46,030 bases of DNA from Kiritimatiellia bacterium. Lineage in GTDB: Bacteria > Verrucomicrobiota > Kiritimatiellia > RZYC01. The notes under the pieces were generated by a model that worked only from the letters and a program-made list of their open reading frames with translations, had not been told where the DNA came from and made no database searches. The DNA lies in the NCBI GenBank assembly GCA_028708815.1, contig JAQVYB010000012.1, forward strand, positions 1 to 46,030, given 5' to 3'. Made by a program: the position numbers and the translations under genes. Of the stretch, positions 19,272-37,038 are shown in pieces (the stretch's first letter is position 1; every line of letters begins with the position of its first letter).

Positions 19272-19517
19272 ATGCATTTATGCATGAGAACAACCATTGA
19301 CTTGGATGATGACTTGGCCCTGCGTGCGAAGAAGGAAGCACTGGAGCGGCGAAGTTCCCTCAAGGCCCTCGTAGAAGAAGGGCTTAAACTGGTGCTGGCC
19401 CAACCGGCAAACCACGAGTTGGAACCGCTCGATGTCTTGGCAGGAATGGACCGTAAAATTTGGACAGGCGTAAACGTGGAGCGCTTCATTCGTGACGCTC
19501 GAAGGGGATGGAAATGA
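19272..19517 (+). CDS. vapB: VapB-type antitoxin
   Basis: This 81-residue protein has the typical antitoxin beginning MRTTIDLDDDLALRAKKEA, a ribbon-helix-helix DNA-binding segment, followed by SSLKALVEEGLKLVL and a C-terminal tail that should wrap the toxin. It neutralises the VapC nuclease and is expected to repress the operon. Two starts are possible. ATG 19272 has AAGG 7 bases upstream and is used here. ATG 19284 gives the more familiar MRTT start but has no ribosome-binding site. It overlaps vapC by 4 bases, the usual antitoxin-first order. Confidence 0.85.
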   Translation: MHLCMRTTIDLDDDLALRAKKEALERRSSLKALVEEGLKLVLAQPANHELEPLDVLAGMDRKIWTGVNVERFIRDARRGWK

Positions 19518-19933
19518 AAACAAAAAAGGCCTTTTGGGATACCGATATTCTACTTTACTGGATCGAGCAGGAAGCGGCGCACCTGCCGCAAACTAAGGCC
19601 CTTGTCGACTGGCAGAAGGCCCAGAGCATCGAAACGGTAACCTCTGCTTATTCGCTGGCGGAAATCCTGGTGCGCCCCATATCGAAGGGCAATGCCGAGG
19701 TGGCCCGAAAATACAGCAATCAAGTGAAAAAGATGGGGTGCATCGAATTCGGCTCCAACGAAGCGCTGGCGTATGCCTGCATTCACGCGGATCATCCTGA
19801 AATCAAACCCCCCGAGTGCATTCAGTTGGCTTGCGCCGTGGCGCACGGCGTTGATTATTTTTTTACCAACGACCGAAAGCTGAGCCGGATCAATATCGAT
19901 GGAATAGGGGAGATCATCTACCTGAAAAGCTGA
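19514..19933 (+). CDS. vapC: VapC-type PIN-domain toxin
   Basis: This 139-residue PIN-domain ribonuclease is the likely toxin of the pair; most studied VapC proteins cut tRNA or rRNA. Metal-binding acidic residues are the Asp of AFWDTDILLYW, the Glu of YSLAEILVRP, a Glu in IKPPECIQLACAVAHG where most relatives have Asp, and the Asp of FFTNDRKLSRI. The start at 19514 overlaps the vapB stop as ATGA and has AAGGGG 6 bases upstream; an ATG at 19508 leaves no spacing. The pair is inserted between pyrE and the NDK-like gene, neither of which is related to it. Confidence 0.9.
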   Translation: MKTKKAFWDTDILLYWIEQEAAHLPQTKALVDWQKAQSIETVTSAYSLAEILVRPISKGNAEVARKYSNQVKKMGCIEFGSNEALAYACIHADHPEIKPPECIQLACAVAHGVDYFFTNDRKLSRINIDGIGEIIYLKS

Positions 19934-20021
19934 TATGAAGCCAATCGTTGACCAGCCAACCCACCCATCGCTTCACTCCCTTCGCCGACGCCGTCTTAAC
20001 CCCGTAAGGAATGAGTAGATC

Positions 20022-20930
20022 ATGGAAAATCAACCGTTTGTATTTATCAAGCCGCATGCCTTTGACAACCGCCGGACGTTGGACTTCATCGACTCCCATT
20101 TTGAGCGTAATAAAATCTCCTGGATCAGAAAGGGGACGATCACCGGCGCACAGATTCGGGCCGGCAATCTGGTGGACCGCCACTATTCTGTAAACGCCCG
20201 TGTGGGTACCGTTCGCGATCCTTCCACGTTGGATATCGGTGAGGGTGGACGCGCGAAGTTTCGCGAATGCTTTGGGGAAGACTGGGATGCGGTAATTGCC
20301 GAAAACCGCATGGTCAGCGGTCTGGTGCTGCAGGAAAAGCTGGATGGTAGCGCGGAAAAAGCGGATGCGGCCTGGAGTGCCTCGTCCAAGAGAACCAAAG
20401 TGGCGGGTGGTCATTATGTGGCTCGGTCCGAGGCTCTGAATCTCTACATCCTCAACGGCTTTTACCCGGTCGTGCGAGAAAGATATATGGCGGATGAGGC
20501 CTCCATTGCTTATGGCATCATCACCTTTTCCTCGAATGATCTGAACTGGAAAGACTTTCGCCACGAGGTGATCGGGGCCACCAATCCTGCCCAGGCCGAC
20601 AAAAAATCCGTGCGCGGATATCTGTTTGAACACGCGGAAGAATTCGGTCTGACCGTGAACAACGGGGATAACGTGATTCATGCCAGTGCGTCGCCTTTTG
20701 AAGCGCTGATCGAAAAAAATCTTTGGCTCGAAGGCTGTGATTTGGCGAGTGATCCATTATATGCGCTGCTGAATGCCGCCGGCATCGGCCTGGCGGATCT
20801 CTTGCGTGAGTACGACGCCAATCCGGTCGTTACCCTGAACTCCGGCGAAACGGGCACACTGTTGGATGTGCTGGAAGACAAGAACACCGATCAGGTGGCC
20901 GATATACTGATTCAACGCGGTCAAAAATAG
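20022..20930 (+). CDS. enlarged nucleoside-diphosphate-kinase-like protein
   Basis: This is a 302-residue protein built on the NDK fold, which passes a phosphate between nucleoside di- and triphosphates through a histidine. Recognisable parts are FVFIKPHAF at the N-terminus (usual IKPDA), GFYPVVRERY at about 146, VIGATNPAQADKKSVRG (183-199) and NVIHASAS with the catalytic His220. Ordinary NDKs have about 140 residues. Here roughly 100 residues are inserted between the first strand and the GFYP segment, and about 70 are added after the histidine. The Asp-to-His change in IKPHA and HASAS for HGSDS make activity uncertain. It precedes the DAHP synthase gene by 15 bases. Confidence 0.75.
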   Translation: MENQPFVFIKPHAFDNRRTLDFIDSHFERNKISWIRKGTITGAQIRAGNLVDRHYSVNARVGTVRDPSTLDIGEGGRAKFRECFGEDWDAVIAENRMVSGLVLQEKLDGSAEKADAAWSASSKRTKVAGGHYVARSEALNLYILNGFYPVVRERYMADEASIAYGIITFSSNDLNWKDFRHEVIGATNPAQADKKSVRGYLFEHAEEFGLTVNNGDNVIHASASPFEALIEKNLWLEGCDLASDPLYALLNAAGIGLADLLREYDANPVVTLNSGETGTLLDVLEDKNTDQVADILIQRGQK

Positions 20931-20945
20931 AAACGGAGCAGGTTC

Positions 20946-21977
20946 ATGATTGTTATTTTAAAACCTCATCCATCGGATGACGAGGTGCGGAATATCGAGG
21001 AACGGGTGCGGGATCTCGGTTACGAGCCGCACACGATTCGCGGCGAAGTGCGCACTGTGGTGGCGGCGGTGGGCGATGAAACCACACACCAATCACTCGA
21101 AACGCTGCTGAGCATCCCGGTGGTGGATCGCGTGATGCCGGTTCAACAAAAATACAAATTGATCAGCCGGGAGACTCATCCGGATGATTTTGTGGTGAAT
21201 GTTGGCGGAATACCTGTTGGAGGAGAGGTTTTTCAGGTTATTGCGGGACCGTGTGCCGTGGAATCTCAGCAACAGGTTTTGGAGGTGGCCGAACATGTAA
21301 AAGGGCAGGGGGCCTGCCTGATGCGCGGCGGAGCTTTCAAGCCGCGCACTTCTCCCTATGATTTTCAGGGTCTCGGAGAGCCCGCCCTCGAAATGATGGC
21401 CCGCGCACGGGATGCCTTTGGTTTACCGGTTGTCACTGAGGTGGTACGGGAATCCGACGTGGAGTTGGTGGCCCGATATGCCGACATGCTTCAGATCGGC
21501 GCACGAAACGCATTGAATTATTCCCTGCTTGAAGCAGTGGCCGATACCGGCAAGCCGGTACTGCTGAAACGCGGCATGGCGTCCACCGTGAATGAATGGC
21601 TCCTGGCGGCGGAATACATCGTAAAACGAGGCAACCGGAATGTGGTTCTTTGCGAGCGCGGAATCCGTACCTTTGAAACGGCGACGCGCAACATGCTCGA
21701 TATCGGCGCGGTGGCGATTGCGAAAAAAGAAACCTGCCTGCCGGTGGTGGTGGATCCCAGTCACGCGGCGGGTCGGGTGGATTTGGTGGAGCCGCTTGCC
21801 AAAGCCGCCATTGCCGCCGGTGCGGATGGATTGCTCGTCGAGGTGCATCCCTGTCCCGAGAAGGCCACCAGCGATCAGGCTCAGCAATTGGATTTCGATG
21901 GGTTTACCTCTTTTATGGAGCATATCAAACCGTACATTGACCTAGCCGGTAAGAAATTCGGCCCGATCAACCGGTAA
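20946..21977 (+). CDS. aroF: 3-deoxy-7-phosphoheptulonate (DAHP) synthase, type I-beta
   Basis: It condenses phosphoenolpyruvate and erythrose 4-phosphate, the first step of the shikimate pathway to aromatic amino acids. The 343 residues comprise an N-terminal ferredoxin-like regulatory domain of about 70 residues (MIVILKPHPSDDEV) and the TIM-barrel catalytic domain. Barrel marks are IAGPCAVES, LMRGGAFKPRTSPYDFQGLG, LLKRGMASTVNEWLLAAEYI, LCERGIRTFETATRNMLDI and VVDPSHAAGR. The N-terminal domain is the Thermotoga-like type that binds tyrosine or phenylalanine, so feedback control by aromatic amino acids is likely. aroF here means the I-beta enzyme, not the E. coli isozyme. Confidence 0.94.
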   Translation: MIVILKPHPSDDEVRNIEERVRDLGYEPHTIRGEVRTVVAAVGDETTHQSLETLLSIPVVDRVMPVQQKYKLISRETHPDDFVVNVGGIPVGGEVFQVIAGPCAVESQQQVLEVAEHVKGQGACLMRGGAFKPRTSPYDFQGLGEPALEMMARARDAFGLPVVTEVVRESDVELVARYADMLQIGARNALNYSLLEAVADTGKPVLLKRGMASTVNEWLLAAEYIVKRGNRNVVLCERGIRTFETATRNMLDIGAVAIAKKETCLPVVVDPSHAAGRVDLVEPLAKAAIAAGADGLLVEVHPCPEKATSDQAQQLDFDGFTSFMEHIKPYIDLAGKKFGPINR

Positions 21978-22037
21978 AGACGGCTACCTCCAGGCGATTG
22001 TGCTCATGTTTCCTTCAAAAGAGACACTTTTAGTTAG

Positions 22038-23213
<1,176 letters not shown>

Positions 23214-23228
23214 AGAAGGAGAATCAGT

Positions 23229-23585
23229 ATGATCAATAACACGTGGCTTATCTTGGCAATGGGGACCCCCGGCGGCGCGGGCGGCGGCGCAACTCAGCAA
23301 TCCCCGGTATTCATGTTTGGCTGGATTGCCATCATGATTGCCATCTTTTACTTTCTGATGATTCGCCCTCAGCAGAAACGCGCCAAAGAACGACAGAAAC
23401 TGTTGGATGCCATCAAGAGCGGCGATCGAGTGGTCTTTGGCGGAGGCATTCTGGGCACCGTCACCAATGTGAAAGAGAAGACGATTCTCATAAAAATTGC
23501 CGACAACGTGAAGATTGAGGTCAGCCGGGGTGCTGTGACCCAGGTGCTGGAGAAGGGCGATACGCCTGAAGACGAACAGAAATAG
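23229..23585 (+). CDS. yajC: Sec translocase accessory protein YajC
   Basis: This small inner-membrane protein associates with SecDF and the SecYEG export channel. The 118 residues begin with a Gly/Ala-rich periplasmic part (GTPGGAGGGATQQ), then one membrane segment (about 30-48, FGWIAIMIAIFYFLMI). The hallmark RPQQKRAKERQKLLDAIKSG follows, then VVFGGGILGTVTNVKEKTI. AGAAGGAGAA lies upstream of the ATG at 23229. It sits 15 bases after tgt and 36 bases before secDF. Confidence 0.96.
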   Translation: MINNTWLILAMGTPGGAGGGATQQSPVFMFGWIAIMIAIFYFLMIRPQQKRAKERQKLLDAIKSGDRVVFGGGILGTVTNVKEKTILIKIADNVKIEVSRGAVTQVLEKGDTPEDEQK

Positions 23586-23621
23586 GCTTCGATAACATTT
23601 GGAAAGACGAGGAATCGAATC

Positions 23622-26168
23622 ATGGAAAAGAATGCTGTGTGGAAATGGCTGATTCTGGTGGCGCTGATTTGTGGGTCGTTGGCCCTGGTATATCCGCCGC
23701 AGGAAAAGGTAACGCTTGGATTGGACCTGCAGGGCGGGACCAGCTTTATTGTGGAGATTGATCAGGAGCGCCTCCGGAAAGAAATCCAGGAACGCGAACC
23801 CAACAGTACACCGGAAGAGGTGAATGTACAAATGAAGGAGGACATCGAGCGCGGCAGAGAAATCGCTCTCGAAGTGATTCGGAACCGTGTGGATGGACTC
23901 GGCATTGCCGAACCAATTATTTACTCCGCCAGTTACCGGGATCAGGAACGAATTATCGTGCAGTTGCCGGGGATTGATGAGGACAAACGGAAATCGGCCC
24001 GGGAATCCATTGAAAGCGTGGCCTTTTTGGAATTCCGCCTCGTGCATGAAAAAAGTGATGAATGGACCGGCGAACTCTTTTCCAAAAACAAGGCGCCGAA
24101 AGGATTTAAAATCAGTGAGCAGGGCAAATATTACGTCCGAGATCACGCCGCTGTAAAAGACGAACAGATGGGGCGCTCCTTTCTGGATCAGTTGAAGAAA
24201 TATGAATATCACGCCAGCTGCGAATTTCTGTTGGAGCGCGAAGTGGATGAGACCGGTCGCGAGATATACCGTCCGTTTTATGTAGAAGTGCGCCCGCTGC
24301 TGAAGGGGGATGCTGTCAAGGCGGCCAATGTGGATTACAACAGCATGACGCACGCCCCGTATGTCTCCATGGAATTCAATTCCTCCGGAGCCACCCGCTT
24401 TGCCAATATCACCAAGAATTATGCACCGCGTGGCCCGAAGAATCCGAAAAGTGATGAAGGTCGGCAATTGGCCATCGTGCTGGATGGGACGCTCTATTCC
24501 GCCCCTTCGATCCGCGAGGAAATTCCGAGTGGCCGGGCCCAGATCACTGGACGCTTCTCGCTTCAGGAATCCACTCGACTCGCCAACGTATTAAGCACCG
24601 GAAGCCTTCCGGTTCCCGTGCGTATCGTTCAAACGCAAACCGTGGACCCGACACTCGGGCGTGATTCCATCGAAAGTGGAGCCAAAGCGGCGGTCATTGC
24701 CTTTATCGCCGTGCTGATCTTCATGCTGATTTACTATATGAAAGCGGGAGTGGTGGCGAATCTGGCATTGTTTGTGGATATGCTGCTGTTGCCGATCGGG
24801 TTGGTCGTGGCGTCCGGCTTTCTCGGCCTGCTCACTGGCGGATCGAGCTTTACCGGAGCATCGGTTGGGCTTCCCACACTCACGCTGCCTGGTATTGCCG
24901 GTATCGTCTTAACCATGGGTATGGCGGTGGATGCAAATGTACTTATTTTCGAGCGCATTCGGGAAGAACTGAACGCCGGTAAGAGGCTGGTCCCGGCTAT
25001 TGCCGCAGGATACGAAAAGGCCTTCAGCACGATTTTTGACTCGAACATTACAACGCTGGTGACAGCCGTGATTCTCTTTGCATTCGGCTCAGGGCCAATC
25101 AAGGGATTTGCCGTGACGCTGACGGCAGGCATCGTGGTCAGCATGTGTGTGGTACTCATCTATACCAAGATGTTCTTCCGCATAATGACCGATAAGTTCA
25201 ATGTAACAACCCTTCGCATGTTCTCGCTTGTCAAAAATACGAACATCAATTTTGTGGGCTTGCGGCACCTGGCCATTGCCTTCTCTCTGATTGTGCTGGT
25301 GGCCACATGGACACCCTTCTTCATGCGCGGAATTGAAAACAATCTGGGGGTTGATTTCACCGGCGGCACAGCATTGCTCTACCGCTTTCAAGAAAAACAA
25401 CCTGTTGAAATCATCCGCGACCTGCTGAATGCAGACGGAGTTTCCGCAACCATTCAGTATCAGGGCGAAATGATGCCGGATGCCACGGGAAAAATACGCG
25501 AATACGTGGAAATTCGTGTGGGTGAAAATGATGGGGAGAAGACAAAAGAGATTGTCGAAGCTTCCTTGTCTCAATTCGGTTATGAGTTGAGCAAGGAGGA
25601 TCAGGTTCGCGGGCAGGTAGGCAGTGAGCTGCGTCGCAAAGGCATCATGGCAATCATCTGGGCCATGGCGGGTATTGTGCTCTACATCACATTCCGTTTC
25701 GAGTTTGGATTTGCTGTGGGTGCCATCGTTGCACTGCTGCACGATGTTCTCATTACCGCGGGTATCTATACGCTGTGTGGGCGTCAAATCAGTCTGACGG
25801 TGGTTGCGGCGCTCTTGACAATTGTCGGTTATTCAGTCAATGACACCATTGTCGTCTTTGACCGTATTCGGGAAGACCTGAAGCTGGTCAAAGGCAAGAC
25901 GTTTAAGGAAATAGCCAATCTCAGCATCAATCAGACCTTGAGCAGAACGGTTCTGACATCCATGACTACGTTAATCAGTGTCCTGGTTCTGCTGTTTTTC
26001 GGAGGCGGCTCCATCTATGACTTTGCCCTGACTTTGTTCATTGGTATAATCGTCGGAACCTATTCCTCCATCTTTGTGGCTACCCCGGTGGCCATGCTGT
26101 GGCACAAGGATAAAAAGCCAATGGCACAGGTGACGGCCCCGGCGGCTGCTCAAGTACGTAAATCGTGA
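23622..26168 (+). CDS. secDF: fused protein-export membrane protein SecD-SecF
   Basis: SecDF uses the proton gradient to pull proteins out of the SecYEG channel on the periplasmic side. In this 848-residue protein SecD and SecF form one chain, with 12 membrane segments expected. The SecD half has GLDLQGGTSFIVEID near residue 33, a large periplasmic P1 domain, and DANVLIFERIREEL in its fourth segment. The SecF half begins near 545 with FTGGTALLYRF, and has the twin motif YSVNDTIVVFDRIREDLK. Fusion is known in Bacillus, Bacteroidota and Chlamydia. The stop overlaps the recJ start by 4 bases. Confidence 0.96.
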   Translation: MEKNAVWKWLILVALICGSLALVYPPQEKVTLGLDLQGGTSFIVEIDQERLRKEIQEREPNSTPEEVNVQMKEDIERGREIALEVIRNRVDGLGIAEPIIYSASYRDQERIIVQLPGIDEDKRKSARESIESVAFLEFRLVHEKSDEWTGELFSKNKAPKGFKISEQGKYYVRDHAAVKDEQMGRSFLDQLKKYEYHASCEFLLEREVDETGREIYRPFYVEVRPLLKGDAVKAANVDYNSMTHAPYVSMEFNSSGATRFANITKNYAPRGPKNPKSDEGRQLAIVLDGTLYSAPSIREEIPSGRAQITGRFSLQESTRLANVLSTGSLPVPVRIVQTQTVDPTLGRDSIESGAKAAVIAFIAVLIFMLIYYMKAGVVANLALFVDMLLLPIGLVVASGFLGLLTGGSSFTGASVGLPTLTLPGIAGIVLTMGMAVDANVLIFERIREELNAGKRLVPAIAAGYEKAFSTIFDSNITTLVTAVILFAFGSGPIKGFAVTLTAGIVVSMCVVLIYTKMFFRIMTDKFNVTTLRMFSLVKNTNINFVGLRHLAIAFSLIVLVATWTPFFMRGIENNLGVDFTGGTALLYRFQEKQPVEIIRDLLNADGVSATIQYQGEMMPDATGKIREYVEIRVGENDGEKTKEIVEASLSQFGYELSKEDQVRGQVGSELRRKGIMAIIWAMAGIVLYITFRFEFGFAVGAIVALLHDVLITAGIYTLCGRQISLTVVAALLTIVGYSVNDTIVVFDRIREDLKLVKGKTFKEIANLSINQTLSRTVLTSMTTLISVLVLLFFGGGSIYDFALTLFIGIIVGTYSSIFVATPVAMLWHKDKKPMAQVTAPAAAQVRKS

Positions 26169-27877
26169 AGCGCTGGATAACGGCGCCGATTGACTTGGAA
26201 GCGGTGGACAGACTCGTCCAAGAGAGTGGTCTGCCGCTTTCCTTTTCCAAGCTATGCGTCGCCCGCAATCTTCGCACCTTGGAGGATGTGCAGGCCTATT
26301 GTGATGTCCGCCTGAGAAATCTGAGCAATCCTTTTGATTTGTCGGGTGTGGAGGAGGCGGCTCAACGCCTGTTGCGTGCGCTCAATAACAAAGAACGGGT
26401 GACCGTGTTCGGTGATTATGATGTGGATGGCATTACCTCCACAGCACTGCTCATTCATCTCTTTTCCGAACTCGGCATCCTCGCCACGCCTTTTATTCCA
26501 GACCGGATGGAAGAAGGATACGGCGTAACAACCGAGGCCATGCAGCGCTGTCTGGAATGCACGAATCCGAGCCTGATTGTTACCGTGGATTGTGGGATTT
26601 CTTCCATTAGTCAGATCGAGCTTGCGAAACAGGCCGGTGTGGATGTCATTGTCACCGATCACCATGAGCCGGGTGCCACGCTTCCTGATGCGGTGGCCGT
26701 CATAAATCCAAAATTGCAGGGAGCATCTCCGTATCATGAGTTGGCCGGGGTGGGGGTGGCCTTCAAAGTCGCCCATGGGTTACTCAAGCTTGGGCGTGCC
26801 ACAGGGCTTTCCGGCTTTGAAGAGGTCGATCTGCGGCGCTACCTTGATCTCACAGCGGTCGGTACCATCTGTGATCTGGTTCCACTCATCGCTGAAAATC
26901 GAATCCTGGCCCGACAGGGCATTGCCCGCCTTCGCAAAACGGAAAATACCGGGCTGAAGGCGCTTGCGGCCTGTGCATCCATCCATTTGGACGAGGCGGA
27001 TAGTTATCACATCGGGTTCCAATTCGGTCCGCGCCTGAATGCTTCCGGACGCCTTTCAAGTGCCGAAACCTCCCTTCAACTTCTTTTGTCCGACGACACG
27101 GAAGCAGCCGCAGAAAATGCCGCGATACTGGATGAACACAACACCGAGCGCCGCCGCCTTGAGGCCTCCATTCTGGCCGAAGCCTGCTCGCAAATTGATG
27201 CGCGGCTTGATCCCGTGCATGATTTCTTTCTTGTCGTCTCATCCAACACCTGGCATCCCGGGGTGATTGGTATTGTTGCATCGCGTCTTGCTAAAAAATA
27301 CCGACGCCCTACAGCGGTTATTGCCGTTGATGAAAAAGGAGAGGGCAGGGGATCGTGCCGCAGTATCGAGGATTTCAATATCGTCGAAGCTTTGAACCAA
27401 TGTGAATCGTTTATGGGGCATCACGGTGGACATCCCATGGCAGCCGGTTTCAGCATCCATAAGGACCGGATTGCCTCCTTTTCCGAAGCCATCAATGAAC
27501 TTGCCCGAAGGCATCTCGAGGGGCGCGACTTGAGGGAATCCGTGCGTATAGATTGTGAGTTGGGCCTGGGCGATCTGGATCGGGAGCTGTATCGCCGGAT
27601 CGAGACTTTGGCGCCCTTCGGCATGGGGAATCCTAAACCGGTCATCTCTGTTGGAGGGCCAGGCGTTCAGGTGATCAGCAAGCGACTCGTCGGACAAAAG
27701 CATACGAGACTGAGTGTAACGGATGGCCGGAACAGGACGAGCGGCATCTATTTTAATTGTCTGCCGGAAGATATTCCCGAAGGAGACGTGTGCGTGGCCC
27801 TGACGCTTCAGCTCAATCATTTCAATGGAAACACGAATCTCGAAATGCAGGTGCTCGACATCGCGCCCTATGTATAA
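26165..27877 (+). CDS. recJ: single-strand-specific 5'-3' exonuclease RecJ
   Basis: RecJ degrades single-stranded DNA from the 5' end in recombination and mismatch repair. The 570 residues carry the DHH phosphoesterase motifs VFGDYDVDGITS, VTVDCGI, VTDHHEPG, the GPRLNASGRLSSAE segment and the DHHA1 motif MGHHGGHPMAAGFSI, followed by an OB-like C-terminal domain. The start is a GTG that overlaps the secDF stop as GTGA, so translation is probably coupled. This is the last plus-strand gene before the strand switch at the putative terminus. Confidence 0.96.
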   Translation: MKRWITAPIDLEAVDRLVQESGLPLSFSKLCVARNLRTLEDVQAYCDVRLRNLSNPFDLSGVEEAAQRLLRALNNKERVTVFGDYDVDGITSTALLIHLFSELGILATPFIPDRMEEGYGVTTEAMQRCLECTNPSLIVTVDCGISSISQIELAKQAGVDVIVTDHHEPGATLPDAVAVINPKLQGASPYHELAGVGVAFKVAHGLLKLGRATGLSGFEEVDLRRYLDLTAVGTICDLVPLIAENRILARQGIARLRKTENTGLKALAACASIHLDEADSYHIGFQFGPRLNASGRLSSAETSLQLLLSDDTEAAAENAAILDEHNTERRRLEASILAEACSQIDARLDPVHDFFLVVSSNTWHPGVIGIVASRLAKKYRRPTAVIAVDEKGEGRGSCRSIEDFNIVEALNQCESFMGHHGGHPMAAGFSIHKDRIASFSEAINELARRHLEGRDLRESVRIDCELGLGDLDRELYRRIETLAPFGMGNPKPVISVGGPGVQVISKRLVGQKHTRLSVTDGRNRTSGIYFNCLPEDIPEGDVCVALTLQLNHFNGNTNLEMQVLDIAPYV

Positions 27878-28156
27878 ATTCTTCGTTGCCGAATCTGACG
27901 GGTGCGATGCCTACTGAAGATAACCAACGTCACTCTACGAGATAGAATCACTTCGCACGTAGGAAAAAAGCACTATGAATATCCACAGCCAATCAGATCA
28001 AAGGCCACGAACAGTAACGTCGCATAATATATGTTATGCACACCACGTGGTGTTTGGGGGTACCAGATGTTGTGGATTTGGTTATTCACAGGCTGTTAAG
28101 AGCGGTCAGCGGTTATCGACTCTGCGCTGGATGACGAGCCAAAGCGGACGATCTGC
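27878..28156. other. gene-free gap at the strand-switch point
   Basis: A gap of 279 bases lies between convergent recJ and glgA. It holds the candidate dif site, a perfect 12-bp palindrome CACCACGTGGTG at 28041-28052 overlapping its right end, and several DnaA-box-like nonamers (ATATCCACA 27979, TTATTCACA 28082, and inverted TGTGGATTT 28071). No convincing gene or hairpin terminator is seen. Confidence 0.6.
28017..28044 (+). other. dif: candidate dif site (XerC/XerD recombination at the replication terminus)
   Basis: The 28 bases split into an 11-bp left arm ACGTCGCATAA, a 6-bp centre TATATG and an 11-bp right arm TTATGCACACC. Against E. coli dif the inner 18 bases match at 16 positions (CGCATAAT, TAT and TTATG blocks); the outer arm ends differ. 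XerC and XerD cut either side of the centre to resolve chromosome dimers. The position in a gene-free gap, exactly where gene direction flips from plus to minus, supports the call. The consensus is known; the assignment here is inference. Confidence 0.75.
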
Positions 28157-29614
28157 TTAGAGTGCCAAGGCTTTGTGATACACGTCCAGATATTCTTGTG
28201 CGGCGTGATCCCAGGAATGCTCTTCGCGCATGTTTCGGCGCATTAAGTCTTGCCGGAAGGTCTTGTCAGCATATTTCTTCAAGGCCATCTGTAAGGTGTC
28301 GTACAAGGCTTCTCCGGAGTATTGCTCGAAGACAAATCCGTTTCCATCTGGAATGCCATTCCCCGTCTCGTCACAGCAATTGCGGATGGTATCTTTTAGT
28401 CCGCCGGTGGCGTGCACGATGGGTATAGCGCCGTAGCGAAGGCTGTATAACTGGTTCAGGCCGCAAGGCTCAAATCGTGAAGGCATGAGAAAGAAATCTG
28501 CGCCGGCCTCGATCTTGTGCGACAGTTCTGTATTGTATTCCAGACGAACCACAAAACGATTTTTCCAGCGCTCCGACCATTCGGTGCAAAGGTCGTGATA
28601 TTTTTGCTGGCCCGTTCCAAGAATAACCATGGATACGTCATGTTCCATGATTTTCTCGATGGCTTGCGCCAGTATATCCAGCCCCTTTTGCTCGGCCAAC
28701 CGAGTGACGATGCCGATTAGCGGGCGCTCGATATCCGGGTCAAGGCCGGTCAACTGAAGTAAATCTGCCTTGCAGGTGAGTTTACCATCGGTGTCGTCGG
28801 CGGAATAATTTTTTGCAATGTGACGATCTGTTTCAGGATTCCATTCGGAGTAGTCCACACCGTTGAGTATCCCGATCAGCTTGTCGCCCTTGTCCATCAG
28901 AACGCCTTCCAATCCGCACCCGTGTTCACTGGTACGTATTTCCGAGGCGTAGGTTTTACTGACGGTTGTGGCATACTGGGAAACGACAATGCCGGCCTTC
29001 ATGCAGTTCAACTGATTGTAGTATTCCATTTCGTACATGTTGTAGCAGGAAAATGGAAGGTTGGAGACGGGAAAGGAGGAACCGGGATAGACACCCTGAT
29101 AAGCGAGATTATGAATGGTATACACGGTCCGTTCCGACTGCGCCCTGCCCCCGCCGTTTATTCCGTGCCGCAGGAAAAGCGGAAGCAGCCCAGTTTGCCA
29201 GTCATTGCAATGCACAATGTCGGGCTTGATTTTCAGGGTATCAATTAAGGCTACCACAGCCTTTTGAAAAAAGGTAAAGCGTTCAAAGTTATCGTCATAA
29301 TCGCGGGTGGAAAGTCCATATAAAAAAGTACGATCAAAAAATTCATCACGCCGAATGTAATAAGTCTTCGGAAAGTCTACTTCATCCAACCAGACCTCTG
29401 CTGTGTGATTGCTTAGCCCGACGGGAATCTGAAGGCGCATCTGGGTGTCGCGTAGATTCCGGTTTCGCTCCATAATCTGGCGGTAACACGGAATGACCCG
29501 AATCACCTCTACGTCGAGTCGCGCCAGAGCATCGGGCAATGCTTTGGCAATATCGGCCAGCCCTCCGGTTGACGCATAGGGACTGATTTCACTGGCGGCA
29601 AATAGTACTTTCAT
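28157..29614 (-). CDS. glgA: glycogen synthase (ADP-glucose dependent)
   Basis: GlgA extends alpha-1,4-glucan from ADP-glucose. The 485 residues are a GT5/GT-B glycosyltransferase with MKVLFAASEISPYASTGGLAD at the N-terminus, HCNDWQTGLLPLFL, YTIHNLAYQG, GILNGVDYSEWNP and the C-terminal donor site FFLMPSRFEPCGLNQLYSLRYG. One oddity is the substrate-binding K-x-G-G-L motif, which here reads STGGL with serine at the lysine position. An open frame runs 21 codons further upstream, but the family start is the ATG at 29614. No other glycogen genes are nearby. Confidence 0.93.
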   Translation of the reverse strand: MKVLFAASEISPYASTGGLADIAKALPDALARLDVEVIRVIPCYRQIMERNRNLRDTQMRLQIPVGLSNHTAEVWLDEVDFPKTYYIRRDEFFDRTFLYGLSTRDYDDNFERFTFFQKAVVALIDTLKIKPDIVHCNDWQTGLLPLFLRHGINGGGRAQSERTVYTIHNLAYQGVYPGSSFPVSNLPFSCYNMYEMEYYNQLNCMKAGIVVSQYATTVSKTYASEIRTSEHGCGLEGVLMDKGDKLIGILNGVDYSEWNPETDRHIAKNYSADDTDGKLTCKADLLQLTGLDPDIERPLIGIVTRLAEQKGLDILAQAIEKIMEHDVSMVILGTGQQKYHDLCTEWSERWKNRFVVRLEYNTELSHKIEAGADFFLMPSRFEPCGLNQLYSLRYGAIPIVHATGGLKDTIRNCCDETGNGIPDGNGFVFEQYSGEALYDTLQMALKKYADKTFRQDLMRRNMREEHSWDHAAQEYLDVYHKALAL

Positions 29615-29702
29615 GATGATCAAGGTCCGGAAACGATACATTTGAGTAGATCGAGGTCGATTGGAGCAGTGGACCAACCAACGTGGGGCTATGCTAAATC
29701 AT

Positions 29703-30611
29703 TCATCGAACAAGGTAAATCATTTTTTTCGGGACATTATCCCTTTCAATATCGAGTACAATGGCACTGAGTCGACTATTAACAAACTCTTTCAGAAAGT
29801 ATTCGCCGCGTGACTGGCTGGTCATGTTCATGGAGTTCACTTTACGTATGCGGTCCCCCTGAAGGAGTCCCATGCTTTTGAAAAAAGCGTCCTCCCCTAC
29901 CATGTCCAGCTCATATCCGGCGATTTTCTGATTTTCTCCGTAGTCCGGCTTCAGAGAGATATAGATGGATGCAATGCGTTCGGGATCGTCCAGGAGTTCC
30001 GTGTAGTAATCCATCAAAGCCGTTCGATTCAAGACCCACCTGTTTTCTCCGACCTGTTTGGCATAAAGATTCTCCATCCAGGCGGTCGGCGTCATTTCCT
30101 CCACGCCCTCTATCCCGGAAGACAACGGGGCCGCATCCTGAAAACCGATCTGCAGAATGGATTCCTCGTCACCTTTTTTCAGAATGGCCCGATCCCGTTC
30201 GATGCATACGACCTGAAATTCATCCAGTAAGGCCCCCTCTTCCACCAGCAACTGCTCTCCGCTTTGCATTTGATCAATAATGGCGGTACGCCTGTTTAGT
30301 CCGCTGGATTGGCCGGATGAGAAAAAAGTGCCTGCCAATCGATAGCGATCAGCAAGGGGACTGTTCGGCAGGGGGAGCGTCCGTTCTTCCGCCGCCCCCC
30401 TCAGAACAAACCAAGCGGCCCCCGCCTTCGAGGCGACGGCATCTGGCGCCCTTTTCCCTGCTTCTTCCTGTTCACCGAAAGACGGGGGCAATGCCCACGC
30501 CTGCGTATCTGCGTGCGGCACACGGCGCAGCAGCACAGCGTATTGGAACGCGGCCAGCAGGAGAATCAGCATGGCGCCCCGGCGTATTTGTATGAATAGG
30601 CCTGTGTTCAT
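29703..30611 (-). CDS. GspC-like membrane protein with PDZ domain
   Basis: This 302-residue protein has the layout of GspC, the inner-membrane clamp of type II secretion. One N-terminal membrane segment (about 13-28, AMLILLLAAFQYAVLL) leads to a variable linker. A homology-region domain follows (about 88-155: YRLAGTFFSS, then AIIDQMQSGEQLLVEEGALL and ERDRAILKKG). A C-terminal PDZ domain (about 230-301) includes AGYELDMVGEDAFFKSMGLL and GDRIRKVNS. In type II systems the homology region contacts the secretin and the PDZ domain helps choose substrates. No other gsp genes are in the window. Its ATG lies 15 bases beyond the RNase P RNA end, and no ribosome-binding site is obvious. Confidence 0.7.
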   Translation of the reverse strand: MNTGLFIQIRRGAMLILLLAAFQYAVLLRRVPHADTQAWALPPSFGEQEEAGKRAPDAVASKAGAAWFVLRGAAEERTLPLPNSPLADRYRLAGTFFSSGQSSGLNRRTAIIDQMQSGEQLLVEEGALLDEFQVVCIERDRAILKKGDEESILQIGFQDAAPLSSGIEGVEEMTPTAWMENLYAKQVGENRWVLNRTALMDYYTELLDDPERIASIYISLKPDYGENQKIAGYELDMVGEDAFFKSMGLLQGDRIRKVNSMNMTSQSRGEYFLKEFVNSRLSAIVLDIERDNVPKKMIYLVR

Positions 30612-30625
30612 GTTCAGTCAAAAAA

Positions 30626-30992
30626 GCGAAAGGGCTTGTAAGCCGGATTTTGTTCCGTCCTTGCGGACGGCCTTGATCATTTATCTAGTGCGATCAACCC
30701 GGAACTCTCACGGATTTGCATCCGTATCGAAGCGGGCCGCCTCTTGTTCCCTATTTGATCTTGCTCCGGATGGGGTTTACCCTGCCTTCGCCATTACTGA
30801 CGAAGCGGTGGTCTCTTACACCACCATTTCACCCTTATCCCGCTCTCGCGGGACGGTATATTTTCTGTGGCACTTTCCATCTCCCACGATCTGGCATGGG
30901 AGTCCCAGGCTTTCACCGGGGCATCCCGCCCTATGGAGTCCGGACTTTCCTCTCTGGATCAAAATCCAGAGCGATCAAGCCACCCTTTCGCC
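30626..30992 (-). ncRNA. rnpB: RNase P RNA (bacterial type A)
   Basis: This is the catalytic RNA that trims the 5' leader of tRNA precursors. The ends pair perfectly as P1: GCGAAAGGG at 30991-30983 with CCCTTTCGC at 30634-30626. Conserved core blocks on the minus strand include GAGGAAAGTCCGGACTCC, ATAGGGCGGG, GGGTGAAATGGTG, GTAAACCCCATCCGGAGCAA and the 3' AAAATCCGGCTTACA. A T6 run follows the 3' end. The 5' end lies 2-3 bases after the stop of the upstream zinc-ribbon gene; TATATA at 31006-31011 inside that gene is at the right distance for a -10 box, although no good -35 is seen. Confidence 0.96.
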
Positions 30993-30994
30993 GT

Positions 30995-31702
30995 TTAATC
31001 ATTTCTATATACGATTCTTCCGCAATATGTGCAGACGGTCAGCGAGTCATTTTTCTTGGCATCATTGACCACCTGGGGCGGCAGATTCATGTGGCAGCCA
31101 CCGCAGGATCCGTTTTCAATGGGTACAATGGCCCGATCTTTCAGGTGGTTCATAATGCGTTCATATTTCGAAAGCATGTCCACCGGAATTCTTTCAGCCA
31201 GTTTCGCACGTTCCGGAATCAGGGATTCCAGTTGTTCCTTTAATACGGCATCCCGCTCATCCAGTTGAGTTACATCCACGGCAATGCGCGCCTCATCTGC
31301 CTTCATGCCCCTCTGAATTTCCTCAATTCTCTTTTTGACTTCATCGGTCTGGCCCATCAGGGCCAGTTGCTTGTCTTCCAATCCGGAGATGTCTACGCCG
31401 GCCTTCTCGATTTCATGTTCCAGCGCGCGGTATTCGTCGTTGTTTTTAATCTGGAACTGCTGTTCTTTGTATTTACGGATTTTACCGTTAATCAGATCGA
31501 TTTCTCCTTCTGTTTCCTTAACGGAGGCCAGGATTCTTTTCAGATCTTCCTGGGCCTGCTCCAAGGAATATCTATGAGCATCCAATCGATGGTCGAGTTC
31601 CTTTTTGCGCAGCGGGATATCTTTGCCTTCCTGACCTAAACGGGCCAGACGGCGATCTTTCTCCTGAATTACCAGCAAGTCATCCATTGGTGTCGTTGCC
31701 AC
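30995..31702 (-). CDS. coiled-coil protein with C4 zinc ribbon (DUF164/CT398 family)
   Basis: This 235-residue protein consists of a long antiparallel coiled coil (about 10-185, rich in Glu, Lys and Leu) and a C-terminal zinc ribbon of the form CGGC then CTYC (SCGGCHMNLPPQVV and TVCTYCGRIVYR). This matches the family of Chlamydia CT398, which was reported to bind sigma-54 and secretion-system parts; the role here is unknown. The start is a GTG at 31702 with AAAGGA 5 bases upstream. Relatives of this gene also lie beside rnpB in actinobacteria. It follows panD by 53 bases with no terminator between. Confidence 0.88.
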   Translation of the reverse strand: MATTPMDDLLVIQEKDRRLARLGQEGKDIPLRKKELDHRLDAHRYSLEQAQEDLKRILASVKETEGEIDLINGKIRKYKEQQFQIKNNDEYRALEHEIEKAGVDISGLEDKQLALMGQTDEVKKRIEEIQRGMKADEARIAVDVTQLDERDAVLKEQLESLIPERAKLAERIPVDMLSKYERIMNHLKDRAIVPIENGSCGGCHMNLPPQVVNDAKKNDSLTVCTYCGRIVYRND

Positions 31703-31755
31703 AATGTTCCTTTCACCCGTTTCGGTTTTCGTTTATGAGCTGACTTTTATCATTT

Positions 31756-32118
31756 TTACTGTGGGTTTTTTTCCACCACACGATTTCGATCATCCACATG
31801 CACAATGCGCGGCGTGTAATCCTTTGCCTCCTGCACATCCATCTGACAATAGGTGATAATAACCACCTCATCGCCGACCATGCCCAGGCGTGCCGCCGGT
31901 CCGTTCAGCATTACTTCGCCGGTATTTCGCGTGCCTTCGATCACGTACGTAACGAGGCGTTCCCCATTATTCACATTGAGTACATGAACTTGTTCGCCTG
32001 GCAGCATATCGGCCTGCTCCATCAGGAGCGGATCGATGCTGATACTTCCCTCGTAGTGCAATTCGAGGGCTGTCAGCACCGCACGATGAATCTTGGATTT
32101 CAACATTATTCTTTGCAT
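31756..32118 (-). CDS. panD: aspartate 1-decarboxylase
   Basis: PanD makes beta-alanine for pantothenate and coenzyme A. The 120 residues match the family. The proenzyme self-cleaves at Gly24-Ser25 in LHYEGSISID, making the pyruvoyl group on the new serine end. NGERLVTYVIEG, LNGPAARLGMVGDEVVII and the conserved VDDRNRVV follow. It is the last gene of the riboflavin-led run, 18 bases after ribE, so coenzyme A and flavin supply may be linked. Confidence 0.96.
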   Translation of the reverse strand: MQRIMLKSKIHRAVLTALELHYEGSISIDPLLMEQADMLPGEQVHVLNVNNGERLVTYVIEGTRNTGEVMLNGPAARLGMVGDEVVIITYCQMDVQEAKDYTPRIVHVDDRNRVVEKNPQ

Positions 32119-32136
32119 GGTTGTCAGCCGCCCCTC

Positions 32137-32781
32137 TCAAATGAGCCCGGTTTCCCGCAGGGAGTCCCAAGTGACCTCGCCGGGAACTCGTCCTCTTTCG
32201 AGTAATCTCCTAGCATATTTGCCCAAGAGGTCAATTTCAAGATTAACAAGCGTCCCTTTTTTCAGCTCGCCGAAGGTCGTTTGCTCATAGGTAAACGGGA
32301 TAATATGTACCGAAAACGTTTTTTTCGTCAATTCCGCCACGGTCAGGCTTACACCATCAATACCGACGGACCCTTTGTAGACCACGCCATCGAACAGTTC
32401 GTCGGAACAGGAAAATTCAAAAGACCAATCCCGTCCCACTTCACGGATGTTCTCGACAGTGGCCACGCCATCCACATGACCCACCACGATGTGGCCGCCC
32501 ATTTCCTGTCCCCATCGCAGTGAGCGCTCCATATTGATGAATTGCCCCGGTTGCTTGTAACCGAGGGTGGTCCGTTCAAAGGTTTCCCGCAGCACGTCAA
32601 AGTGCAGGGCGCCGTCGACCACATCGGTTACGGTCAGACAGATGCCGGAGATGGCAATGCTCTCACCGATTTCGACGGGATGATCCCATGGCTTACGTGG
32701 ATCGATGGCTATTCGGCCCCACTTTTCCTTCAAATCCAACGACTTGATGATCCCTTTTCTTTCCACAATTCCACTGAACAT
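32137..32781 (-). CDS. ribE: riboflavin synthase, alpha chain
   Basis: It converts two 6,7-dimethyl-8-ribityllumazine molecules to riboflavin plus the pyrimidine precursor. The 214 residues show the twofold internal repeat of lumazine-binding barrels: repeat one begins MFSGIVERKG with SIAISGICLTVTDV and FDVLRETFERTTLG, repeat two has GGHIVVGHVDGVA, GSVGIDGVSLTVAEL and VHIIPFTYEQTTFG. AAGGAGAG lies upstream of the ATG at 32781. It follows ribD by 14 bases. Confidence 0.96.
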   Translation of the reverse strand: MFSGIVERKGIIKSLDLKEKWGRIAIDPRKPWDHPVEIGESIAISGICLTVTDVVDGALHFDVLRETFERTTLGYKQPGQFINMERSLRWGQEMGGHIVVGHVDGVATVENIREVGRDWSFEFSCSDELFDGVVYKGSVGIDGVSLTVAELTKKTFSVHIIPFTYEQTTFGELKKGTLVNLEIDLLGKYARRLLERGRVPGEVTWDSLRETGLI

Positions 32782-32795
32782 AGGTGACTCTCCTT

Positions 32796-33926
32796 TTATT
32801 TTCTTTTTGAAATCAGCAGACTATCTTTTCCAACCAGATGCATTTCATTCCAACGGAATTCCGGTTTGTACGCCATATCCCAACGGGTTCCCTGAAGGAC
32901 ATGAACGCCCGATGTACCCAGAAAGCAGGGCGCAATAAAAAGATAGAGGCGATCCACAAGCGAGCGCTTCACCAACTCGCCGGCCAAAGATCCCCCACCC
33001 TCGCAAAGCACGTGCAGGAGCCCCATGGCTCCGAGTCGTTCGAGCAAATCGGCAATGTCCACCCGGTTGTTTTCCGTTTGGCAGACCAGGACGATTGCTC
33101 CGGTGCGTTCCACGCGGCGTATCTTTTTTCTGTCAGCCTGATCGGTCACGGCCAGTAGGGTTTGAGCCGTGTATTTGTCATTCAGAACCTGCGCGGAGAG
33201 CGGAATTCGGGCGTGGCTGTCCAATACAATCCGCCACGGCTTGCGGCCTAGCGCAGGTCTTGGAAGAAGGGAGGGGTCATCGGCCAGGACTGTGCCAACG
33301 CCCACCATAACGGCATCCGCCGTACGCCGCAGACACTGAACGACTTTTCTGGCTTCGGGGCCGGAAATCCAGCGGGATTCGCCAAGTGAGTCTGCAATCA
33401 TGCCGTCTGCCGTCATGGCCATTTTCAGGCTAAGCAGGGGTTTTCCTTCCAGGATGTAATTCTTAAAAGGGGCAAGCATTGCCTGCGCCTCGTTTCGTCC
33501 GGTGCCGGTGGTAACGGCGATTCCTGCGCGTCGCAGCAGAGTGATGCCTCGGCGGTAGTGTTTTGGATTCGGATCAGGAATGGCCACCACGACGCGACTC
33601 ACGCCGGACTTCAGGATACAGTCCGTGCATGGTGGTGTTCGGCCGTGGGTGGAACAGGGTTCAAGCGTGACATACAGTGTTGCACCACGCGCGGCTGTTC
33701 CGGCCTTTCGCAGGGCCATGCGTTCGGCATGTTCGGCCCCCGCGCAGCGGTGATATCCGGCGGCCAGGAGCTGTCCCCTTTTCACGACCACGGCACCGAC
33801 CGGCGGGTTGGGCCGAGTGGTCCCCTCCCCGCGTTCGGCCCATTCCAGAGCCAGGCGCATCCAGCGTGCATCCTCCTGTGCGTCGGGGATGTTTTCTCCA
33901 ACCGTTTTTTTATTCGCTCGGTTCAT
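32796..33926 (-). CDS. ribD: bifunctional riboflavin deaminase/reductase RibD
   Basis: RibD carries out the deamination and side-chain reduction steps of riboflavin synthesis. The 376 residues comprise an N-terminal zinc deaminase (about 20-165, zinc ligands in GAEHAERMALRKAG and LEPCSTHGRTPPCTDCI) and a C-terminal NADPH-dependent reductase (about 165-376, KMAMTADGMIAD, GVGTVLADDPSLLPR, HVLCEGGGSLAGEL). The start at 33926 overlaps the end of ftsY by 17 bases, so the two genes are translated from one message. Confidence 0.96.
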   Translation of the reverse strand: MNRANKKTVGENIPDAQEDARWMRLALEWAERGEGTTRPNPPVGAVVVKRGQLLAAGYHRCAGAEHAERMALRKAGTAARGATLYVTLEPCSTHGRTPPCTDCILKSGVSRVVVAIPDPNPKHYRRGITLLRRAGIAVTTGTGRNEAQAMLAPFKNYILEGKPLLSLKMAMTADGMIADSLGESRWISGPEARKVVQCLRRTADAVMVGVGTVLADDPSLLPRPALGRKPWRIVLDSHARIPLSAQVLNDKYTAQTLLAVTDQADRKKIRRVERTGAIVLVCQTENNRVDIADLLERLGAMGLLHVLCEGGGSLAGELVKRSLVDRLYLFIAPCFLGTSGVHVLQGTRWDMAYKPEFRWNEMHLVGKDSLLISKRK

Positions 33927-34803
33927 CCTGATTCAACAGGGCCTCCACAAATTGTACTTTACTAAAGGGTTCCAGGTCATTTTCCTGCTCGCCGAGTCCG
34001 ATCAAACGCAGAGGGATGCCAAGCTCCTGAAAGATGGAAAAGACAAATCCACCTCGGGAGGAACCGTCCATTTTAGTCACCACCACACCTGTTAAATGGA
34101 CCGCTTCATGAAAAACACGTGCCTGTGCAATGGCATTGCGGCCGAGGGATGCATCCAGGACCATCCAGACTTCCTGTGGTGCATCGGCTTTCACCTTGGC
34201 GATCGAGCGGCGCACTTTCTGCAATTCGGTCATCAGCGGTTGTTTGGTATGCATGCGTCCGGCGGTGTCAATGAAGAGATAGTCATATCCCCGTTGCAGT
34301 GCGGCTTCGGTGGCGTCATAGGCGACGGCCGCCGCATCGGCGCCCTGTTTGCCTGCCACTATCTCGCAACCCAGGCGTTCTGCCCAGATACGCAACTGGT
34401 CCGTACCCGCTGCGCGAAAGGTATCTGCGCCGGCTAACAGGGCGCGATGCTTTCGGCTGTTGGCCTGAAAACCAAGTTTGGCGCAGGTGGTGGTTTTACC
34501 GGAACCATTGACTCCGACCAGCAGAACCACCTGAGGTTTGTCTACGGGATCCCAGTTGAATCCTTCCTCCGCACTCAGGGATTGAAGCATGGCTTCTCGT
34601 AACAGAGTCTGTCTTTCTTTGACTGATTCGGCCCGCCCTACCGTCTTAATCCAGTCTGCCGCCAGTGCCGGTGCCACATCGGCGCGAATCAACTGCTCTT
34701 CCAACTCCTCAAGGGAAGCCGCCCGGGATGCCGTACCGCTCCCCCGAAAGAGTCCCCCGAGGGTACGGCGTGTCAATCGCAGCGCTTCAAGCCATCCGGC
34801 CAT
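33910..34803 (-). CDS. ftsY: signal recognition particle receptor FtsY
   Basis: FtsY is the membrane-associated SRP receptor GTPase that delivers ribosomes making membrane proteins to SecYEG. This is a short form, 297 residues, without the long acidic A domain of E. coli. The N domain is at about 1-90. The G domain has GVNGSGKTTTCAKLG (G1), LLAGADTFRAAGTDQL, FIDTAGRMHT (G3), TKMDGSSRGG (G4) and LIGLGEQENDLEPF at the end. Its ATG overlaps the nusB stop by one base (TAATG) and its 3' end overlaps ribD by 17 bases, placing it inside the riboflavin transcription unit. Confidence 0.95.
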   Translation of the reverse strand: MAGWLEALRLTRRTLGGLFRGSGTASRAASLEELEEQLIRADVAPALAADWIKTVGRAESVKERQTLLREAMLQSLSAEEGFNWDPVDKPQVVLLVGVNGSGKTTTCAKLGFQANSRKHRALLAGADTFRAAGTDQLRIWAERLGCEIVAGKQGADAAAVAYDATEAALQRGYDYLFIDTAGRMHTKQPLMTELQKVRRSIAKVKADAPQEVWMVLDASLGRNAIAQARVFHEAVHLTGVVVTKMDGSSRGGFVFSIFQELGIPLRLIGLGEQENDLEPFSKVQFVEALLNQDEPSE

Positions 34804-35270
34804 TACGGGGCCCTCTTTTCGGTTTCCGGGTCCGTGGCCGGTTTGCCCTTCTGCTCTGCTGTGATGCTTCGCAGCAATTTGTCGAGCACTCCATTGACAA
34901 AACGTCCAGACTCCGGATTGCTCAGATCTTTGACCAGGTCAATGGCTTCATTGATAGAGACGACAGGAGGAATATCGTTGCAGTAGAGCATTTCATAGGC
35001 CGCTACGCGAAGCACATTACGATCCACGGCGCCCATACGTGAGAGTTCCCAGTTATCGGCACAGGAGATGATACGGCGGTCGATTTCATCCTTGTTGCGC
35101 AGCACGCCATAGACAATCTGTTCGGCAAAGGAAATCACCTTGTTTGATGGTTTTTCCTCTTCCTGCTGTCCCCAAAAAAGTTCGAGAGCCTCGGCGGGTT
35201 GATCCGGGTTGAAATCCATTTGAAAAAGGAACTGAGCAGCCCGTTCGCGGGCGGTGTGACGTATAGACAT
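34803..35270 (-). CDS. nusB: transcription antitermination factor NusB
   Basis: NusB binds boxA RNA with NusE (S10) and prevents early termination in rRNA operons. The 155 residues are an all-helical NusB fold with HTARERAAQFLFQMDFN at the N-terminus, EIDRRIISCADNWELSRMGAVDRNVLRVAAYEMLYC shortened here to its core DNWELSRMGAVDRNVLR, and INEAIDLVKDLSNPESGRFV. The frame is open upstream, but AAGGA lies 7 bases before the ATG at 35270. It starts 2 bases after the ribH stop; ribH-nusB is a common bacterial pair. Confidence 0.95.
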   Translation of the reverse strand: MSIRHTARERAAQFLFQMDFNPDQPAEALELFWGQQEEEKPSNKVISFAEQIVYGVLRNKDEIDRRIISCADNWELSRMGAVDRNVLRVAAYEMLYCNDIPPVVSINEAIDLVKDLSNPESGRFVNGVLDKLLRSITAEQKGKPATDPETEKRAP

Positions 35271-35272
35271 AG

Positions 35273-35794
35273 TTATTTCCTTATGGACTGAAAGACCTTC
35301 ACCATTTCCAATGCCGCCAGTGCTGCGTACCATCCGCGACTTTTCTTTTCTCCCGTGCAGCGCTCTTCCGCCTGGGCGAGCGAGGCGGCGGAAATGACTT
35401 CATAAATCACCGGGAGAGCATACTCTATGGACATCCGGCCCAGTGCGAGGGCGATATGCTCATTGATCAATTGGGCGTGCTGGGTTTCCCCCTGCACGAC
35501 CACCCCCAGAGCCAGAATCGCATCATAGTGACCATTTTTAGCCAACTCTCCGGCGATGGTCGGAATTTCATAAGCGCCGGGCACCCATATCAGTGTGATG
35601 TCGGCTTCTTTCACCCCGTGTTCGATCAAGGCCTGCACGGCGTAGCGGGCCAGCTTCGAGGTTAATTCGATATTAAAACGGCTTGCCACAAGGGCACACT
35701 TCACATTCTCACCATCGAAAGATCCGGTAATCTGCTGAATCCCCTCGAAGGACGGAACATTCAGGGCCGTTTCCATATTGATTTCTTTTTTCAT
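35273..35794 (-). CDS. ribH: 6,7-dimethyl-8-ribityllumazine synthase
   Basis: RibH condenses the pyrimidine and the four-carbon phosphate into lumazine, the penultimate riboflavin step, usually as a 60-subunit shell. The 173 residues carry ALVASRFNIELTSKL, WVPGAYEIPTIAGELAKNG, ALGVVVQGETQHAQLI with the catalytic His region, and LPVIYEVISAASLAQAEERC. AAGGAA lies 8 bases before the ATG at 35794, and the gene follows ribBA by 14 bases. Confidence 0.96.
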   Translation of the reverse strand: MKKEINMETALNVPSFEGIQQITGSFDGENVKCALVASRFNIELTSKLARYAVQALIEHGVKEADITLIWVPGAYEIPTIAGELAKNGHYDAILALGVVVQGETQHAQLINEHIALALGRMSIEYALPVIYEVISAASLAQAEERCTGEKKSRGWYAALAALEMVKVFQSIRK

Positions 35795-35808
35795 AAGAAC
35801 AGTTCCTT

Positions 35809-37038
35809 TTAGAGGAGGTGGCCCATTTTGTCCTTTTTGGTTTTCAGATAGCGCTCATTATGGGCGGTACTGGCCACTTTAATCGGTATCCGTTCGGTAA
35901 TGCAGAGGCCGAACTGCTCCAGCCCGTCCACCTTGCGCGGATTATTGGTCATCAGGCGAATATGATGCAATCCAAGATCAGCCAGAATCTGAGCCCCGCT
36001 GCCGTAATCCCGCAGATCGGCATCGAAGCCCAAGTGGATGTTGGCTTCCACCGTATCCATTCCTTTTTCCTGAAGGGCATAGGCATGCATTTTATGTACC
36101 AGACCAATCCCTCGTCCCTCCTGGCGCATATAGAGAACCACGCCATGACCTTCCTTTGCGACTTCGCGCATGGCGGAATCCAGTTGCTCGCCGCAATCGC
36201 ATCGCGCGGACTTGAATACATCACCCGTAAGGCATTCACTGTGAATTCGGACCAGAGCAGATTCCTGTTTTTCAGGCTCTCCCATGACCAATGCGATGTG
36301 ATGAAGGTCATCCAGCGTGGAATGGTAGAGCTTCAGTTTGAACAGGCCATACATCGTCGGCATCTCTACGCATTGCACCAAGTCCACCAGTTTTTCTGTT
36401 CTGCGGCGATACTTGATAATCGCCGCCACTGAAACCAAGGGAATCCCGTGCTGTTTTGAAAACTCCAGCAGTTCGGGAACTCGCGCCATCTGGCCGTCCT
36501 CGCGCAGAATTTCGCAGATCACGCCGGAGGGATTCAGCCCGGCCAGACGCGCCAGATCCACCGCCGCCTCGGTATGGCCGGGCCGCCGCAACACCCCTCC
36601 ATGCACGGCTTCCAGCGGAAAAACATGGCCGGGCCGCCGAAGATCCGACGGTCGGCTGTTTTCATCGATCAGCACCTGAACGGTGGCTGCTCGATCGTGG
36701 GCGCTTATGCCGGTGGTGACCCCCCGGATCGTTGCATCCACGGAATCCATAAAGGCCGTGCCGAACTGATCATTCTCGCCGCGCGGCACCATCCGGGAGA
36801 GTCCGAGGCGTTTTAACGTCTCTCTCTCCATCGGGACACAGACGAGGCCGCGGCCCTGCTGTGCCATGAAATTGATAATCTCAGGGGTCACTTTTTCAGC
36901 GGCACAGATGAGATCCCCTTCGTTTTCCCGCTGCTCGTCATCGCTGACGATGACTATGCGGCCGGCCCGGATGGCCTCCACGGCTTCTTCCACGCTGCTG
37001 AATCCCTGTTCCTGCTGTTTTTCTTCTGTTTTTTTCAT
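35809..37038 (-). CDS. ribBA: bifunctional DHBP synthase / GTP cyclohydrolase II
   Basis: RibBA starts both branches of riboflavin synthesis. The N-terminal half (about 10-205) is 3,4-dihydroxy-2-butanone 4-phosphate synthase with [28 protein letters not shown] and [17 protein letters not shown]. The C-terminal half (about 210-405) is GTP cyclohydrolase II with [20 protein letters not shown] (zinc cysteines), [14 protein letters not shown] and [13 protein letters not shown]. The ATG at 37038 directly follows the poly-T of the riboswitch terminator, so no room is left for a normal ribosome-binding site. The only candidate is CGGGA in the terminator 3' stem, about 7 bases upstream. Confidence 0.96.

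Follow-up and report, generated by a model that had tools for sequence, protein, structure and literature searches.

A highly probable chromosomal dif site in Kiritimatiellia, at a switch of KOPS and GC-skew polarity

The window analysed here is a stretch of 46,030 nucleotides from a Kiritimatiellia bacterium. It contains a gap of 279 bp without genes (positions 27878-28156), flanked by the convergent genes recJ and glgA, both of which are identified by profile (Table 1). Within this gap lies the 28-bp sequence ACGTCGCATAATATATGTTATGCACACC (as read on the plus strand), which the initial annotation had proposed as a dif site marking the replication terminus. The sequence and coordinates given there are exact, and the observation as a whole is confirmed. 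In the site a 6-bp centre separates two 11-bp arms that are inverted to each other, and the 28 positions form a block of conservation. The core CGCATAA-TATATG-TTATG is identical to the inner part of E. coli dif at 16 of 18 positions, as had been noted; over the full 28 bases, 17 positions match in the orientation of the initial annotation and 21 in the reverse orientation. The right arm, TTATGCACACC, is atypical, the commonest form in the class being TTATGTNNANN, while the central hexamer in relatives is mostly TATATC, TATATA or TATATG. A perfect palindrome overlaps the right end of the site, and ACGTGGTG also stands after dif in another member of the family (G002).

Table 1. Features of the window and the basis of their annotation.
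Feature	Position	Strand	Basis or remark
dif site, 28 bp, ACGTCGCATAA TATATG TTATGCACACC	28017..28044	+	sequence, single copy, relatives, skew/KOPS switch, matrix score 38.2
predicted XerC-binding arm ACGTCGCATAA, nearly fixed in class	28017..28027	+	likeness to XerC arms
central hexamer TATATG	28028..28033	+	by position
predicted XerD-binding arm TTATGCACACC	28034..28044	+	sequence
perfect 14-bp palindrome ACACCACGTGGTGT, overlapping right end of dif	28040..28053	.	sequence
recJ, convergent left neighbour	26165..27877	+	TIGR00644, 521 bits
glgA, convergent right neighbour	28157..29677	-	TIGR02095, 536 bits
lepA, 21 kb from dif	5041..6846	+	TIGR01393, 923 bits
signal peptidase I, adjoining lepA	6872..8077	+	TIGR02227
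KOPS-like GGGNAGGG, left flank	3761..27350		+: 3761, 4535, 4905, 10143, 18991, 21303, 22594, 27343 (n=8); -: 6849 (n=1)
KOPS-like GGGNAGGG, right flank	29143..40116		-: 29143, 33823, 40109 (n=3); +: 0

The 28-mer was expected to be present as a single copy, and the core pattern indeed matches exactly once in the assembly (4.02 Mb in 272 contigs, 95% complete), in which a reversed-pattern control found no match. A weight matrix built from 51 distinct sites of relatives, with this genome left out, gave 28017-28044 a score of 38.2 bits. The opposite strand of the site scored 5.4 bits and the top score among 20 shuffled windows was 9.3. There is no better dif match elsewhere in the window, the next separate place scoring -1.4 bits. 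The match is well beyond chance.

The site lies at a point where several features of the window change direction. A crude selection of open reading frames placed 17 of 23 on the plus strand to the left of the site and 17 of 21 on the minus strand to the right. Two of the four right-hand plus frames have no Pfam match, and the strand counts given previously (18 of 23 plus, 18 of 20 minus) are therefore essentially right. GC skew is positive to the left of the site and negative to the right, and its cumulative maximum within the window, at 29,672, falls about 1.6 kb away, close to the site. The KOPS-like motif GGGNAGGG also switches strand here (plus to minus 8:1 on the left and 0:3 on the right). 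A KOPS switch at dif is a published hallmark (PMC13342612), and it is found both in the window and across the 41 genomes described below. The position of dif and the end of replication need not coincide (PMC13342612), so the suggestion that the site marks the terminus is best read as placing it at the polarity switch; it does not imply the exact end of replication.

Equivalent sites are present in most of Kiritimatiellia and in much of the phylum. With the core pattern CATAANNTATATTATGCGACGT, on the opposite strand, 190 of 288 class genomes have a match when up to 3 mismatches are allowed. With a limit of 2 mismatches, 229 of 388 genomes of the phylum have one, and here a single match to the reversed-pattern control was seen. 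Among named contigs, matches came mostly from Kiritimatiellae and Lentisphaeria, with others from Desulfobacterota, Margulisbacteria and a few Alphaproteobacteria; on this evidence the class is taken to be Kiritimatiellia as broadly defined in GTDB. The site is conserved in relatives, some of which still have glgA adjoining dif. Among 74 distinct stretches conservation drops steeply where the 28 bp end, and just beyond them the signal is weak. One genus (g12 of family f10, including G011, G026 and G037) gave no match to the class dif in the pattern search; its genomes carry two XerC/D-type recombinases and FtsK-gamma, and its dif has probably diverged.

The flanks of the site, about 10 kb on each side, were compared in 40 genomes of the class, making 41 with the window. 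Skew is higher to the left of dif than to the right in 40 of the 41. For KOPS the counts are 99:13 to the left and 7:106 to the right. Locus by locus, KOPS polarity is concordant in 36, tied in 5 and discordant in none. Two near-complete genomes, G145 (4.1 Mb) and G080 (3.9 Mb), were sampled at about 20 places each, every 0.2 Mb or so. In both, dif is at the plus-to-minus switch in skew, with the minus-to-plus switch roughly opposite. The skew shift is seen locally in the window, and by whole-chromosome sampling in these two relatives only. The gene glgA adjoins dif in 14 of 42 relative loci, an adjacency common to several families, and lepA is within a few kb in 21 of 42, from which it follows that the neighbourhood is partly old. 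Signal peptidase I is often the closest neighbour of dif in relatives. Loci with neighbours other than glgA and lepA have the same polarity.

XerC and XerD act at dif to separate joined chromosomes before cell division. A profile search of the present genome identified a full-length XerD (358 bits, against a cut-off of 329.6), FtsK-gamma (97 bits) and, at a contig end, the C-terminal half only of a XerC. Each of 16 relatives encodes two or more XerC/D-type recombinases, and FtsK-gamma is present in 15 of them. A single-recombinase system of the XerS/difSL or XerH/difH type was considered and rejected: the XerD equivalog is above its cut-off, and the XerS model, which was the single-Xer profile scored, gave 116 bits, below its cut-off of 267. 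These systems resemble the present one in having a tyrosine recombinase acting at a terminus site; they differ in their arm sequences, and what the present genome encodes is a XerD equivalog together with a fragment of XerC.

On this basis, a mechanism can be proposed in which binding and catalysis by XerC and XerD, the order of strand exchange and the pairing of arms with proteins are carried over from E. coli and from relatives. Homologous recombination would turn a pair of sister chromosomes into a dimer. FtsK at the septum would load on GGGNAGGG motifs, which point to dif from both arms of the chromosome, and would move the DNA until the two copies of dif come together. FtsK-gamma would then activate XerD. 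Strand exchange over the central hexamer, carried out by XerC and XerD on the two 11-bp arms, would yield monomers.

The same KOPS and skew switch is present in 40 relatives and the window, and two near-complete chromosomes show a terminus-type switch; we therefore consider it almost certain that this bacterium has its chromosomal dif at the 28-mer, which XerC and XerD are predicted to bind and recombine. The dif interpretation of the initial annotation is supported, in that every check proposed with it that was run came out in favour. It is very improbable that the site instead derives from a plasmid or a mobile element that uses Xer recombination. Relatives do have dif-like sites whose central hexamers are altered, and in G001 two such sites are on phage-like contigs, but the present site is flanked by two housekeeping genes, recJ and glgA, and lies at the switch in skew and KOPS, the adjacency to glgA is shared by several families, and the genome has no other such site. 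Convergent gene ends, a near-palindromic core and the 14-bp palindrome over the right end are also what one would expect of a bidirectional transcription terminator, or of a palindrome bound by a regulator, that resembles dif by chance. This is barely credible, given that there is mostly one copy per genome, that conservation forms a block of 28 bp, and that the position is fixed with respect to KOPS and skew in some 30 families, whatever the flanking genes.

Dif has apparently not been described before for Kiritimatiellia, and a literature search for dif in this class found nothing specific. It was predicted earlier for three Verrucomicrobia, using proteobacterial and firmicute profiles (Kono et al., 2011; PMC3025954); these belong to the same GTDB phylum as the present genome, and Kiritimatiellia are absent from the dif table of that work. 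The site shares with E. coli dif and its XerCD/FtsK system the 11-6-11 layout, the core, the single copy, the KOPS switch and the presence of genes for XerD and FtsK-gamma. It differs in its outer arms.

The left arm is predicted to bind XerC and the right arm XerD, an assignment made from sequence. The dif of Geobacter sulfurreducens is ACGTCCCATAAGATATATTATGTAAAGT, in which ACGTCCCATAA is the XerC arm (PMC2731167), and this was the likeness used to assign ACGTCGCATAA, the two being identical at 10 of 11 positions. The Desulfobacterota form of dif, of which this is an example, has nearly the same XerC arm, and AYGTCGCATAA is present, with KOPS polarity as in the class, on many contigs of Desulfobacterota; unlike the class, they retain a canonical XerD arm, TTATGTAAACT or TTATGTTAAAT. 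The minus-strand reading GGTGTGCATAA-CATATA-TTATGCGACGT was tried first, because GGTGTGCATAA resembles the E. coli XerC arm, and was dropped in view of the variable arms of relatives, many of which are exactly TTATGTAAACT or TTATGTTAAAT. In the comparison with E. coli dif, the class consensus shows no clear preference for orientation (19 as used here against 18 reversed), and Geobacter favours the orientation used here (22 against 20).

With the arms assigned in this way, the XerC arm AYGTCGCATAA is nearly fixed in relatives and the XerD arm, TTATGTNNANN, is variable. This was quantified with a search blind to positions 2-5 and 24-27, which gave 98 matches after near-duplicates within genera were thinned by hand. 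The information content is 6.31 bits at XerC positions 2-5, compared with 2.30 bits at XerD positions 24-27, and the 98 matches have 11 distinct arms on the XerC side against 42 on the XerD side. The initial annotation had suggested a lineage-specific form of dif. This is right, and goes further than was proposed: the fixed ACGTCGCATAA is a signature, and the right arm varies between genera. The element would be a dif of known kind, in a Kiritimatiellia version in which the half that usually varies appears to be fixed, and the half that is usually fixed appears to vary. The tendency for the XerD arm to be better conserved, which is not a defining feature of dif, does not hold here, given arms assigned by sequence. 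Kono et al. found the XerD arm to be the conserved one in all phyla (PMC3025954), and Carnoy and Roten likewise report a trend opposite to that in the present class, with the XerD arm better conserved (PMC2731167). The class could serve as a natural counterexample to the rule by which constraint falls on the XerD half of dif. In practical terms, AYGTCGCATAA-TATATN-TTATGTNNANN is a usable dif signature for a largely uncultured class, and places the terminus in fragmented genomes.

The direction of dif relative to KOPS bears on the arm assignment. It is the same in every informative class locus, including L212, L213 and L217, in which glgA and/or lepA are on swapped sides, which gives a hint of selection on dif orientation. 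When E. coli dif is put to the same test, its XerD arm falls on the side where the class has the arm assigned to XerC, and for this reason an exchange of roles retains some probability, in which the same dif would have its fixed arm (read as TTATGCGACGT) bound by XerD and its variable arm by XerC. Both the orientation and the gradient of conservation would then agree with E. coli. Under the sequence-assigned arms the orientation relative to KOPS is opposite to that of E. coli dif, published work has XerD binding the better conserved arm, and the site in the window aligns better in reverse to E. coli dif (21 against 17 of 28). Against this, the variable arm is often exactly a canonical XerD arm, the fixed arm is close to the XerC arm of Geobacter, and some genera of family f31 have kept TTATGTAAACT while the other arm has changed to TTTGCGCATAA, which is like the E. 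coli XerC arm, with KOPS polarity unchanged. This last pattern supports the assignment adopted here, and we regard exchanged roles as unlikely.

With XerC assigned to the fixed arm, it could tentatively be proposed that purifying constraint has shifted away from the XerD arm and onto the XerC arm in Kiritimatiellia and related groups, and that dif also keeps a single orientation with respect to chromosome polarity, the opposite of that in E. coli. We find this combination rather doubtful. If true, this lineage would differ in how the two recombinases divide their labour, or in the side from which FtsK activates them. The orientation is discordant in 2 of 51 named contigs of Kiritimatiellae and Lentisphaeria, and it is not universal in the phylum: family f65 has two-replicon genomes in which one dif of the two is apparently reversed. 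A literature search on dif orientation returned unrelated papers only.

Several genomes of the phylum carry further sites that resemble dif. G454 has about 30 in one genome, mostly as inverted pairs, and in this genome (L229, L244, L304-L314), and also at L238 in G438, such pairs surround segments of about 135-141 bp. The inner copy reaches into prepilin-like genes, where it overlaps their start codon and leader (MYIMRR..FTLIELLVV). The segment contains a ribosome-binding site, which points toward the gene in about ten copies; in three or four others it points away. At L244 the segment lies between two divergent prepilin genes and faces one only. Similar inverted pairs surround 159-160 bp in G489, G506 and G460 (L317-L321, L242, L249), and at L320 in G506 a prepilin reading frame apparently starts within the segment. 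The segments at the prepilin genes look like an invertible expression switch driven by Xer and dif, with inversion as a putative event. A literature search for Xer-driven pilin switches found nothing specific; a Xer-linked inversion has been proposed in Ureaplasma (PMC3599477).

Extra dif-like sites with class arms and other central hexamers are found at L339 and L340 in G001, on contigs with phage-like genes, and at L341 in G146, near integrase-like genes. These are possibly Xer-using integrated elements or plasmid resolution sites. Finally, G419 (C1 and C2; L336, L337, L345-L364) and G430 (C1 and C2; L334, L335) each have two contigs of 2.4-2.8 Mb, and every one of these has its own dif. On both contigs of G419 skew goes from positive to negative, with the switch near dif, which suggests two chromosome-sized replicons.
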